A stretch of DNA of 45,941 nucleotides from Alphaproteobacteria bacterium (GTDB taxonomy: Bacteria; Pseudomonadota; Alphaproteobacteria; Micavibrionales; Micavibrionaceae). Positions 27,609-31,257 of the stretch are shown here, in pieces. Location: the NCBI GenBank assembly GCA_018608245.1, contig JABAZY010000005.1, positions 1 to 45,941 of the forward strand, read 5' to 3'. A model generated the notes under the pieces. It did no database searches, was not told where the DNA came from, and was given only the letters and a program-made list of their open reading frames with translations. The first letter of the stretch is position 1, and every line of letters starts with the position of its first letter. Both the position numbers and the translations under genes were made by a program.

Positions 27609-27715
27609 GGTTATAAAGATTACACCGCTAGGGGTTGTGGTTTCATCCACAATCTACTCACAGCAGTTTTACACAAAATGTTTATAATTTCTTACCATAT
27701 TGGGGAGTAAGGTAC

Positions 27716-29539
27716 ATGTTCGACTATGCACAAATTGAAGGGGGAAATCGAATTCAAATCGACCGCTCCCGCGACGAGAATCTAACAAAATTCGGTATTG
27801 AGACTCTATATGACCGATATTTGCTACCAGAAGAAGGCCCACAGGACCTTTTCGCCCGTGTAGCTATGTATTACGGCGATGATTCAAAGCACGCCCAGCG
27901 TCTATACGACTATATGTCAAAACTTTGGTTTATGCCTTCTACACCTGTTCTATCCAATGGTGGAACAAGCCGTGGCTTGCCTATCTCTTGTTTCCTCAAC
28001 GAAACACAGGACAGCTTGGAAGATATTGTGTCTCTATGGAACGAAAATGTCTGGTTGGCTTCTCTTGGTGGCGGTATTGGCTCTTATTGGGGGAATGTTC
28101 GCTCTATCGGTGAGAAAGTTGGCCGTAACGGTAAAACATCAGGGATTGTTCCTTTCATCCGCGTAATGGATTCAATGACTTTAGCGATTTCTCAAGGATC
28201 ACTTCGTCGTGGTTCTGCTGCAATTTATCTTCCTATCTGGCATCCAGAAATTGAAGAATTTATTGAAATGCGTCGCCCAACAGGTGGCGATCCAAACCGT
28301 AAAGCACTTAACTTGCACCAAGGTGTTTTGGTTAATAATGCTTTCATGCACGCTGTTGAAAATGATGAGCAGTGGCCACTTCGCTCACCTAAAGACAATG
28401 CCATCATGGATACAGTTGGCGCGCGTGATCTTTGGATCCGTCTATTAACGGCACGTATTGAAACGGGCGAGCCATACATTATCTACATCGATCACGTGAA
28501 TGATCAAATTCCTGACCACCACAAAATGGCTGGTCTGAATGTGAAAATGTCTAACCTATGTTCAGAGATTACTTTGCCAACAGGTGTCGATCACTTAGGT
28601 AATGATAGAACAGCCGTGTGTTGCCTATCCTCTCTAAACCTAGAGATGTTTGATCAATGGCAAGATAATCCGCAAATGATTGAAGACATCATGCGATTCC
28701 TGGATAACGTCCTCTCCGACTTTATTGAGAAAGCACCAGATGCAATGAAACGTGCAAAATACGCAGCAATGCGTGAGCGTTCAGTTGGTCTTGGTGTTAT
28801 GGGTCTACACTCATTCTTACAATCAAAACAAATTCCAATGGAAAGCGTAATGGCAAAAGTTTGGAACCGTCGTATGTTCCAACACATTAAACGCCAAGCA
28901 GATGACGCCTCTCGTGTTCTTGCAGAAGAGCGTGGCGCATGTCCAGATGCCGCAGATTACGGTGTAATGGAGCGTTTCTCAAATAAAATGGCGATTGCCC
29001 CTACGGCATCTATCTCCATTATTTGTGGCGGTGCTTCTCCAGGTATTGAACCAATTGCAGCGAATGCTTATACGCACAAAACTTTGTCAGGGTCTTTCCC
29101 AGTGAAAAACAAATACCTGACAGCAGTTTTGGAAGAAAAAGGTGAAAATACAGATGATGTTTGGTCATCAATCTTCACCAATGAAGGATCAGTGCAACAT
29201 CTTGATTTCTTAAGCCAAGACGAAAAAGATGTTTTCAAAACAGCCTTTGAAATTGATCAACGTTGGTTGATTGAACACGCAGGTGACCGTTCACAATTCA
29301 TTTGTCAGGCACAGAGCTTGAACATCTTTGTTCCAGCTAACGTACATAAGAAAGTCTTACATGACCTTCACATGGATGCATGGAAGAAAGGCGTTAAGTC
29401 ACTTTATTACTGCCGTTCAAAATCTATCCAACGTGCAGAAAGTAATGCCTCATGGCTAAGAACACGCGTGTCAGAAGGACGAGAGCCCGAACTCTCCGCC
29501 GCCGACCCAGAATATGACGAATGCTTAAGCTGTCAGTAA
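27716..29539 (+). CDS. nrdA: Ribonucleoside-diphosphate reductase alpha subunit, class I
   Basis: The catalytic subunit that reduces ribonucleotides to deoxyribonucleotides. I choose ATG 27716 (MFDYAQIEGG) because GGGGAGTAAGG precedes it; the frame is open to a TTG 81 bases earlier. The active-site cysteine regions (LPISCFLNETQDS, MSNLCSEITLP), the loop ISQGSLRRGSAAIYLP and the C-terminal redox pair C603/C606 in ECLSCQ are present. The tyrosine dyad LYYC (Y564, Y565) for long-range radical transfer shows it is class I and needs a NrdB radical subunit. At 607 residues it lacks an N-terminal ATP-cone domain. No nrdB follows. Confidence 0.95.
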   Translation: MFDYAQIEGGNRIQIDRSRDENLTKFGIETLYDRYLLPEEGPQDLFARVAMYYGDDSKHAQRLYDYMSKLWFMPSTPVLSNGGTSRGLPISCFLNETQDSLEDIVSLWNENVWLASLGGGIGSYWGNVRSIGEKVGRNGKTSGIVPFIRVMDSMTLAISQGSLRRGSAAIYLPIWHPEIEEFIEMRRPTGGDPNRKALNLHQGVLVNNAFMHAVENDEQWPLRSPKDNAIMDTVGARDLWIRLLTARIETGEPYIIYIDHVNDQIPDHHKMAGLNVKMSNLCSEITLPTGVDHLGNDRTAVCCLSSLNLEMFDQWQDNPQMIEDIMRFLDNVLSDFIEKAPDAMKRAKYAAMRERSVGLGVMGLHSFLQSKQIPMESVMAKVWNRRMFQHIKRQADDASRVLAEERGACPDAADYGVMERFSNKMAIAPTASISIICGGASPGIEPIAANAYTHKTLSGSFPVKNKYLTAVLEEKGENTDDVWSSIFTNEGSVQHLDFLSQDEKDVFKTAFEIDQRWLIEHAGDRSQFICQAQSLNIFVPANVHKKVLHDLHMDAWKKGVKSLYYCRSKSIQRAESNASWLRTRVSEGREPELSAADPEYDECLSCQ

Positions 29540-29565
29540 AAGAATTTTTAGAAAGGAGGCTAATT

Positions 29566-29622
29566 ATGGCCAAATTTTTGAACATCCTCAATGAATCTAA
29601 AAGTGGTTTTTTGGATCAATGA
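29566..29622 (+). CDS. 18-codon reading frame at the position expected for nrdB
   Basis: AAGGAGG (29553-29559) stands six bases before this ATG, an ideal ribosome binding site just 27 bases after the nrdA stop. The frame MAKFLNILNESKSGFLDQ ends at TGA. Some NrdB proteins begin with a short, similar leader ending in GLLE or GFLD before the conserved YKPFRYPWA block, which is not found in any frame here. It may be the broken 5' end of nrdB, or a small peptide on a structured transcript. Confidence 0.4.
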   Translation: MAKFLNILNESKSGFLDQ

Positions 29623-29639
29623 CTAAAAGAGGAAAATTA

Positions 29640-29886
29640 GATATAGCTTGAAGTGGAATACGCTTTAGATAGACGAAAGTCGTTAAGCCCCCAGCCTTAT
29701 GAGAACCACTGATTGAGGTTTCGAAGCTTTAAAAAGCTTAGTCGAAAGTGAGAAATACTAGCTAGTCGTTTTGCTAGAAAGATTATTAGGCCCTTCTAAG
29801 AAGGCACCCGAGATCTTCATCTGGGATATTCAGGCAGTATTTCGTATATTTTAAAGAGCTTCTAAGAAATTAGAGGCTCTTTTTTT
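29640..29886 (+). ncRNA. Candidate structured RNA downstream of nrdA
   Basis: This stretch has no coding frame but holds consecutive hairpins: GAC-GAAA-GTC (29672-29681), AAGCTT-TAAA-AAGCTT (29724-29739, extended by TCG/CGA), CTAGC/GCTAG (29758-29777), CCTTC-TAA-GAAGG (29792-29804) and CCC-AGAT-CTTC-ATCT-GGG with one bulged G (29807-29825). It ends in a strong terminator. It does not show the conserved sequences of tmRNA, RNase P RNA, SRP RNA, or group I or group II introns that I could check by eye. Whether it is a separate RNA, a structured 3' UTR of nrdA or an intron remnant is open. Confidence 0.45.
29853..29886 (+). terminator. Rho-independent terminator with GAAA tetraloop
   Basis: AAAGAGCTTCTAA pairs with TTAGAGGCTCTTT over 13 bp (one G-U) around a GAAA loop and continues into a T-run to 29886. 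It ends the nrdA transcript and the structured region behind it. The flanking A and T tracts make it partly usable in both directions, so it may also end the convergent gpt transcript. Confidence 0.9.
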
Positions 29887-29888
29887 AT

Positions 29889-29957
29889 CGTCATTGTGAG
29901 GAATGAAATGACGAAGCAATCCAGAATCTAGATTGCCGCGCTACGCTCGCAATGACG
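29889..29957. repeat. Palindromic repeat element of the Rickettsiales/alphaproteobacterial type
   Basis: The ends CGTCATTGTGAG and CTCGCAATGACG are inverted repeats (11 of 12), and the middle contains GCAATCCAGAATCTAGATTGC, itself an imperfect palindrome. The phrase combination CGTCATTGCGAG, GAAGCAATCCAG and CGCTACGCTCGCAATGACG is the familiar form of small dispersed palindromic elements seen in Rickettsiales and other alphaproteobacterial genomes. It is a single copy in this window, placed three bases after a terminator and ten bases from the gpt stop. Confidence 0.75.
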
Positions 29958-29966
29958 GCTATTGAA

Positions 29967-30467
29967 TTACTTCCGCGCCAACGGCGTTGAGTATTGATTT
30001 TCTAAATCCCAAGGGAAATGCACCCATGTGTCTTGAGAGAAGGACATGATAGAGGTATCAACCAAATCTTCGCCTGCTGGTTTGGTATAAATGCACGCGA
30101 AATGTGCCTTAGGGTATTTTGCACGAGCGAGCTTGAAAGTAGCGCCCGTATCAACCAAATCATCAATAATCAGCCAGCCTTCACCATTATCTGTGACGCT
30201 CGCAGGGGCTTTCAAAATTTTAGTTTCACTTTGCTCTTTCACATCATAACTGGTGATGCAAAAAGTTTCGATCATCAGAATTTCCAGCTCACGCGCGACG
30301 ATACAGGCAGGCACCATACCGCCACGGGTAATCGCAATGATACCCTTCCACTTACCACCTTCTAACGGGCCTTTATCAAGCAATTTCCACGCCAAAGCCT
30401 TACCATTGCGGTGAATCTCTTCCCATGAAACAGGGAAGTCTTTGGAGTACGTTTCAGAATCAGCCAT
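29967..30467 (-). CDS. gpt: Xanthine phosphoribosyltransferase
   Basis: A purine-salvage enzyme that makes XMP/GMP from xanthine or guanine and PRPP. I start at MADSETYSKDFPVSWEEI (ATG 30465-30467), which gives 166 residues, near E. coli Gpt (152); the frame is open further upstream inside the preceding gene. The PRPP-binding motif is LIIDDLVDTGATF, and GIIAITRGGMVPACIVARELEI and the C-terminal WVHFPWD also fit Gpt. The start overlaps the end of the GT25 gene by eight bases, so the two are coupled. Confidence 0.92.
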   Translation of the reverse strand: MADSETYSKDFPVSWEEIHRNGKALAWKLLDKGPLEGGKWKGIIAITRGGMVPACIVARELEILMIETFCITSYDVKEQSETKILKAPASVTDNGEGWLIIDDLVDTGATFKLARAKYPKAHFACIYTKPAGEDLVDTSIMSFSQDTWVHFPWDLENQYSTPLARK

Positions 30468-31257
30468 ATTTTTTATCCTTAAAGTAGGTGCGCGCATACC
30501 AGTATTTTTTACCAAATGCTTCACAAATTCTAAACCAAAAGCGGAAGAACGGATAGAAAATTCTGGCCATTCCTGTGACTTGCGGTTTTTTATTAAAACG
30601 TTCATTCCCAATAGAAGAATCAAAATCATGATTTTGATAAGCCGTTTTTGGATAGATAGAAAACCAATTCAACCCTGTTTGCCAACTACGCCCCATAAGT
30701 ACATCAATAGGAAAATATGTTTTATCAAGATGTGCCAACATTTTCTTAGCGCCTTTGTGCGTAATGATATAAGCATGCGCATCCCCTGGTGTACCTGGGA
30801 AGCGTGTTAACCAAGTATCATCCGCTAATTTACAAACGCGTCGCTGCTTAGCCTTCATCACCTTATCGCGTCCCATAAAGCGGACTAACTCATAAGGCAC
30901 AGGGCAATTTGAAATTAACGCTTTCAGCGTTGGTAAAAAATTATCATATAAAATAATATCATCTTCAAAGATCAACGCCTGCTCTAAATCATGCTCAATG
31001 ATATGCTGATAAATTCGTTTATGCGAACTGGTGCATCCTAATTCTGCGGGCAATAGATCACGCCCATAATAACGCAGACGGCGCTTGCGGTCATATTCTG
31101 AATGGTTAGTAACATCGAATTCACGCCCGTCTGTAGCGTCAAAAAATTCAAAATTAAGCCCTAAATCACCCAAAATTTGGGTAATACGCACACGACGGTC
31201 TGTCTCACTCGCCATGCTAATCACAAAAATCGGTAATTTCTCTATAGAACTCATCAT
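30460..31257 (-). CDS. Glycosyltransferase family 25 (LPS-type)
   Basis: GT25 enzymes transfer sugars (often galactose) to LPS or lipooligosaccharide. The signature pieces are PIFVISMASETDRRVRI, FEFFDATDG, LPAELGCTSSHKRIYQHI and ALIFEDDIILYDNFL, where EDD is the metal-binding motif; GDAHAYIITHKGAKKML follows. I take MMSSIEKLP as the start (ATG 31255-31257); the ribosome binding site is weak and an ATG five codons upstream is possible. Coupled to gpt downstream. Confidence 0.88.
   Translation of the reverse strand: MMSSIEKLPIFVISMASETDRRVRITQILGDLGLNFEFFDATDGREFDVTNHSEYDRKRRLRYYGRDLLPAELGCTSSHKRIYQHIIEHDLEQALIFEDDIILYDNFLPTLKALISNCPVPYELVRFMGRDKVMKAKQRRVCKLADDTWLTRFPGTPGDAHAYIITHKGAKKMLAHLDKTYFPIDVLMGRSWQTGLNWFSIYPKTAYQNHDFDSSIGNERFNKKPQVTGMARIFYPFFRFWFRICEAFGKKYWYARTYFKDKKYG

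Follow-up and report, generated by a model that had tools for sequence, protein, structure and literature searches.

Leader-peptide attenuators in bacteria are built, in order, of a short reading frame, folds, and a terminator, and small RNAs (sRNAs) derived from 3′ untranslated regions (UTRs) are typically smaller and less structured than the RNA element described here. One 3′-UTR-derived sRNA is reported to be released from the glutamine synthetase mRNA (PMC9731577), and VcdRP of Vibrio cholerae is reported as an example of a dual-function sRNA (PMC8672173). The present element resembles the 3′-UTR-derived sRNAs in its place, bounded in 4/4 members by the stop codon of a metabolic gene, here nrdA, and by a terminator, and in that the genome has an Hfq gene; unlike them, it carries its own strong start codon. 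With the dual-function sRNAs it shares a regulatory size and a short frame preceded by a good Shine-Dalgarno sequence (4/4 members), but its peptide has 13–20 amino acids, varies past about codon 10, and is encoded by a frame that overlaps conserved helices. The order of short frame, folds, and terminator is also that of the attenuators, whereas the element has no constant downstream gene and its constant neighbor is upstream. The Hfq gene was present in 8/8 genomes tested, the four carriers of the element among them, and equally in non-carriers. Among the titles and abstract openings listed, no description of an RNA following nrdA was found for this group, and a full-text search on Micavibrio and small RNA returned no paper on Micavibrio RNAs, as judged by title and abstract opening.

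The window, a stretch of 45,941 nucleotides from an alphaproteobacterial assembly, contains the gene for the class I ribonucleotide reductase large chain, nrdA, at 27716–29539 on the plus strand. Its product has the Pfam domains Ribonuc_red_lgN/lgC and, on reading the sequence, a Tyr-Tyr pair near its end, within LYYCRS, which we take to be the radical-transfer Tyr dyad; the initial annotation had recognized a class I NrdA with this dyad, and both features agree. The open frame containing nrdA begins at 27635, and the likely start is the ATG of MFDYAQ, placed by comparison with the related loci L066 and L078, whose ORFs begin MFDYAQ/MFDVAQ; the stop codon, TAA, is read at 29537–29539. The structured element (29545–29852, plus strand) occupies the space between this stop and an intrinsic terminator (29853–29890, plus strand; stem 29853–29882, GAAA loop, U tail). 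Rereading of 28800–31200 confirmed the layout first described: a strong Shine-Dalgarno sequence, AGAAAGGAGG (29550–29559, plus strand), inside the first hairpin, P1; an ATG (29566–29568) opening a mini-ORF of 18 codons, MAKFLNILNESKSGFLDQ, that ends in TGA (29620–29622) and spans 29566–29622 on the plus strand with its stop included; hairpins; and the GAAA-looped terminator. The roughly 230 nt after the mini-ORF hold no long frame, and each of the element's three forward frames is interrupted by stops. The gene after nrdA is not nrdB; that place is taken by a convergent gene (29967–30629, minus strand), adjoining the element, that encodes a phosphoribosyltransferase domain (Pfam PF00156). A REP-like palindromic repeat at about 29886–29960 directly follows the terminator, at the place where the gene order of relatives (e.g., nrdA-msrB-nrdB in L073) breaks off, and it may mark a rearrangement breakpoint; it has no second copy in the window, and its one weak match was in L103.

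Homologues of the element were found in L066, L073, and L078, which are separately named assemblies, in each case between the nrdA stop and a terminator. The architecture proposed for the four members consists of P1, then P2, then PZ, a long-range helix that would close a multibranch region in which PY encloses PX; all lie on the plus strand. P1 (29545–29584; strands 29545–29554 and 29575–29584) holds the Shine-Dalgarno sequence and the ATG and appears in the minimum-energy folds of 4/4 members with 7–10 pairs, some of its positions staying unpaired in the window, L073, and L078. P2 (29585–29633; 29585–29589 and 29629–29633) pairs UCCUC with GAGGA around a hairpin of variable sequence; it is UCCCC/GGGGA in L066 and L078, and the inner hairpin sequence is different in each member. 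PZ (29639–29851; 29639–29645 and 29845–29851) is AGAUAUA/UAUAUUU in the window, GUAGGC/GCCUAU in L073, GGGU/ACCC in L066, and GGGU/GCCC in L078. PY (29752–29843; 29752–29759 and 29836–29843) is GAAAUACU/AGUAUUUC in the window, AAAUGCU/AGUAUUU in L078, GAGUGUC/GGCAUUC in L073, and GGAUUGCU/GGCAAUUC in L066. PX (29774–29824; 29774–29778 and 29820–29824), inside PY, is CUAGA/UCUGG in the window, UAGCG/CGCUA in L078, CUGUG/CACAG in L073, and CUAGA/UCUAG in L066. A pseudoknot of CUUGAA (29647–29652) with UUCAGG, judged by eye, was dropped, as it is not kept in L066.

Single-sequence minimum-energy folds use no alignment and provide a check free of the bias of picking helices by eye. They contained the full set of five for L066 and for L073 (in which 7 of 9 strand positions of P1 were present), P1, P2, PY, and PX with PZ missing in the window folded over 29540–29890, P1, PY, and PX in the window folded over 29543–29852, and P1 and PX only in L078. 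Read helix by helix, PX was present in 4/4 members, PY in the window, L066, and L073 and not in L078, P2 in the same three (in the longer window fold and not the shorter), and PZ in L066 and L073 only. With the helices partly picked by eye on the same four sequences used for counting, so that the controls lean in their favor, 88.5% of 52 cells of the 3′ domain (PY and PX) were paired and 8/13 pairs had changed on both sides; the covariation score of this domain, 0.72, was reached by 0/500 shuffles, and the best slid control scored 0.19. In the 5′ domain, 89.5% of 76 cells were paired (10/500 shuffles as high), and its covariation score of 0.34 was reached by 2/500 shuffles (best slid control, 0.18). 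The weaker measures of the 5′ domain are unconvincing: 4/19 pairs had changed on both sides, which 31/500 shuffles reached, and its further pair types were matched by 135/500. Duplex energies after swapping strands (24 assignments) were best for the cognate combination in P1, P2, PY, and PX, with ties except in PY, and second best in PZ.

Folding energy for 29540–29890, terminator included, gave a z of −2.32 (2/100 shuffles as good); without the terminator, z was −1.19 for the window (12/100 shuffles), −3.14 for L066, −1.06 for L073, and −0.66 for L078. By folding energy alone the interval is just moderately unusual, and without the terminator it is unremarkable in 3/4 members. Leave-one-out nhmmer profiles built from three members, with the database size set to 2 Mb and each member sought in its own locus, recovered each fourth member over nearly its full length at E-values of 6e-13 to 3e-22. 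The interval stands above chance because of the same-site homologues, these leave-one-out E-values, and the covariation, and the comparison argues that it is a real, conserved structured RNA. The suggestion of a structured nrdA 3′ UTR is supported in this way by same-site homologues and five covarying helices, and the search for conserved structure in related genomes that had been recommended with it yielded the three homologues.

The element is rare. It follows four of the 78 nrdA genes on the tree (77 loci and the window), those of the window, L066, L073, and L078. An nhmmer search of 143 loci with a profile of the 5′ domain returned these three relatives together with L002 and L034, which are loci of the window itself, with the next best match at E 0.66. 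Two models, R1 for the 5′ domain and R2 for the 3′ domain, each detected the same four genomes among the 142 of the order, with no E-value above 5e-16, and the carriers span 3/54 genera, in one family (Micavibrionaceae). Under stricter filters, R1 detected only the window's own genome in a class sample (385 genomes) and a phylum sample (398 genomes). R2, run over 75 sources (the window and L064–L137, with L138–L143 left out), returned the four members, with the next best match at E 0.34. The terminator, whose own sequence varies between members, begins 314–356 nt after the nrdA stop in the four, compared with 2–36 nt in 11/15 near relatives without the element, so the element amounts to roughly 290 nt extra between stop and terminator. 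In the 74 non-carrier loci, a strict terminator within 450 nt was detected in 36 (starting within 100 nt in 34) and none was detected in 38. The only constant neighbor of the element is nrdA.

The initial annotation had taken nrdB to be normally the next gene after nrdA and the 18-codon frame to resemble a NrdB leader. The window genome (G000; 2.02 Mb in 72 contigs, 99.86% complete) has a sole PF00268 match, at C22:104941–105765, on another contig than nrdA, in an intact frame of 345 codons with msrB (Pfam SelR) directly upstream. The real NrdB begins MPITDQEKANSPLLQERHVYKPF, which is unrelated to the MAKFLNILNE of the mini-ORF, and the leader was rejected on this ground. Nor is adjacency the rule: nrdB was present in 48/49 genomes of the relatives set with a full-length nrdA match (self included), lying within 500 nt of nrdA in just 16, at 501–3000 nt in 13, at 3–20 kb in 8, and on another contig in 11, a count inflated by fragmented assemblies. 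A nrdB more than 3 kb away or on another contig (19/48 genomes having both) is common among relatives. The gene after the element also differs, being nrdB in L066, msrB followed by nrdB in L073, msrB in L078 (no nrdB within 2.0 kb beyond it), and the convergent gene in the window; since L073 has nrdA-msrB-nrdB, a rearrangement directly behind the terminator probably took place in the lineage of the window. In the congeners G002, G007, and G009, the match to the window nrdA is weak (28–33% identity) and nrdB scores higher (about 308 bits, compared with 244 in the window genome), as if their ribonucleotide reductase had been replaced by another type.

A Shine-Dalgarno sequence, an ATG, and an in-frame stop are found in 4/4 members, with a frame of 13–20 codons that starts within the first hairpin; the spacing of Shine-Dalgarno sequence and ATG is workable in all four though the intervening bases vary, and AGAAAGGAGG is presumably complementary to the 16S 3′ end. 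The counterparts of the mini-ORF in the relatives are MAKFLLVPNEYQCIHIGYNV, MAKFLVILNECTGCFPVEGN, and MTNFLVIPNGYAN. The first ten or so codons align without gaps (MAKFLVIxNE), and beyond them both sequence and length diverge. The stop falls 2–6 nt ahead of the 3′ strand of P2 in 3/4 members, as UAA two bases ahead in L066 and L073 and as UGA six bases ahead in the window; in L078 it comes earlier, within the inner hairpin. A change of CUC to CCC replaces Leu by Pro in the peptide and leaves P2 paired. The idea of a small-peptide RNA is borne out as a possibility by the start site in 4/4 members and loses ground on the peptide itself, which is variable after about codon 10; past that point the peptide is probably not the product that matters. 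The pattern AGAAAGGAGGN{4,9}ATGGC occurs once in the window genome, at the element, and in 2/38 genomes searched, self included. The other match among the 38 is in L158, where a start codon near 1518 opens a frame for a 35-aa basic peptide (MAKKKGCGCKTAPRG...) behind the same AGAAAGGAGG Shine-Dalgarno sequence.

Comparison with Rfam, where a hit would have named the interval, gave none: no Rfam 15 family scored at its gathering threshold anywhere in the window, and permissive searches of the four members gave only sub-gathering matches that were inconsistent between members, the best being Leu_leader in L145 at 30.3 bits (gathering score 50), over the 3′ end and terminator. No tRNA or tmRNA was found in the window (ARAGORN, Rfam). 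A retron or other reverse transcriptase-linked RNA was dropped, as PF00078 was found in 0/4 carriers; it was present in 3/6 non-carriers tested.

There is perhaps an even chance that the element is a regulatory RNA of about 300 nt in the nrdA 3′ UTR, the 5′ domain of which is opened by translation of the mini-ORF. It would be made within the nrdA transcript, as no promoter-like site was found on the plus strand between 29300 and 30000, and would end at the intrinsic terminator, acting as a regulatory RNA of the 3′-UTR, dual-function type. Ribosomes starting from the Shine-Dalgarno sequence and ATG would melt P1, free the 5′ strand of P2, and halt just short of its 3′ strand, so that the 5′ domain could not be folded while the mini-ORF is translated, an alternation that we propose to follow from the geometry. 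Folding of the RNA, its processing, or its ability to meet a partner may then depend on the state of translation. In L078, an extra terminator-like hairpin with a short U tract, read in the sequence between nrdA and the element, would argue against simple co-transcription there, and the occurrence in 4/142 genomes would argue against a core role.

It is fairly unlikely that the element is instead a mobile or selfish unit encoding an RNA, with the gap between nrdA and its terminator as insertion site, although its patchy distribution and the short stop-to-terminator distance in near relatives without it fit such an origin. On the nrdA tree (made by a quick method) the presence pattern takes at least three changes, and 5′-domain identity departs from host kinship, at 74% between the window and L073 and 57% between L073 and L078 despite their sister nrdA genes. 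Ancestral presence followed by many losses would yield the same pattern, however, and independent gain and repeated loss fit it alike. The element contains no long open frame, and under laxer filters each of the four carriers had one copy at E ≤ 1, bar a marginal second match in G083 (E 0.87). Pattern and blastn searches of viral, phage, and plasmid collections found no copy: the 5′ pattern had 0 exact matches, a looser one had seven, none confirmed by R1 or R2, and 0/20 phage and 0/71 plasmid records covered 80% of the blastn query, with short pieces only among the matches listed. R1 and R2 gave nothing significant when applied to three stretches of phage sequence and seven further loci. A start closely similar to that of the element, AGAAAGGAGGC(0-3)ATTATGGCC, was found in six viral contigs, among them two pairs that each repeat one sequence, and a 4.2-kb contig with a frame resembling a coat protein by eye; the same AGAAAGGAGGC-ATTATGGCC start occurs in coat genes of three records of Blumeviridae, single-stranded RNA phages. 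Such start sites lie in L148 near 520–545, L149 near 511–536, L153:1688–1709, L151:275–296, and L154:2956–2977, with GGC(C)/GGCC flanking the AUG. With one gap, the L073 start site matches about 27 nt around the start of the coat gene in two Konmavirus records (Blumeviridae), and such a start is rare in host relatives (the 2/38 genomes above), but it is very improbable that the element is a relic or mimic of a phage coat-gene start region. The similarity ends at the start, on those phages R1 reached at best E 1 and R2 found nothing, and the natural L073 query gave E 0.1, an E of 5e-6 requiring a query joined from phage and element letters. Closely similar starts precede other viral genes, and convergence on a strong start, which is how we read the likeness, would suffice.

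The remaining alternatives concern the neighboring genes and the peptide. A cis-acting leader (attenuator or riboswitch-like) of the next gene, ancestrally msrB-nrdB, would explain the leader-peptide-like layout closing in a terminator, and nrdB or msrB is indeed next in 3/4 members; we consider it quite unlikely, mainly because only nrdA is constant among the neighbors, the downstream gene varying among members and being convergent in the window. Moreover, a terminator stands within 100 nt of nrdA in 34/74 non-carrier loci anyway, and no antiterminator pairing conserved across members was seen by eye. That the locus is a small-protein gene, with the MAKFLVIxNE peptide as the conserved part and the remainder as 3′ UTR, is improbable: the start site is strong and the first ten codons align without gaps, but neither sequence nor length is conserved past about codon 10 (13–20 codons), the Leu/Pro change tracks RNA pairing, and covarying structure extends far outside the frame. 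Barely credible is a split or degenerate intron or nrdB debris, which the position after nrdA had brought to mind. Group I and group II intron models gave nothing at gathering score in the window and nothing among the matches listed at E ≤ 10 for 29500–29960 or L144–L147, so the split intron finds no Rfam match in window or members, and the carriers lack the PF00078 reverse transcriptase. The interval has its own terminator and covarying structure, and it follows nrdA whether or not nrdB comes next. Debris had been linked at the outset to a complete nrdB elsewhere together with a lack of conserved structure; the complete nrdB, with its different N-terminus, is there, but the structure is not lacking, as three relatives keep the element.

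The element represents an RNA family with covariation support and nothing at gathering score in Rfam 15, and recognizing it corrects a tempting misreading of the locus as a missing nrdB or a split intron. The carriers are few, and all are related to the predatory bacterium Micavibrio. In the boldest form of the regulatory reading, which we regard as rather unlikely, it would be a new class of structured RNA, about 300 nt long, that accompanies nrdA in Micavibrio-like alphaproteobacteria and passes patchily from genus to genus; a start codon of phage strength in the first hairpin would make the fold report translation and so link the supply of ribosomes to the synthesis of deoxynucleotides. With its start codon buried inside a conserved hairpin, the element offers a clear hypothesis open to mutation, and the constant link with nrdA points to ribonucleotide reductase expression as the thing to test.
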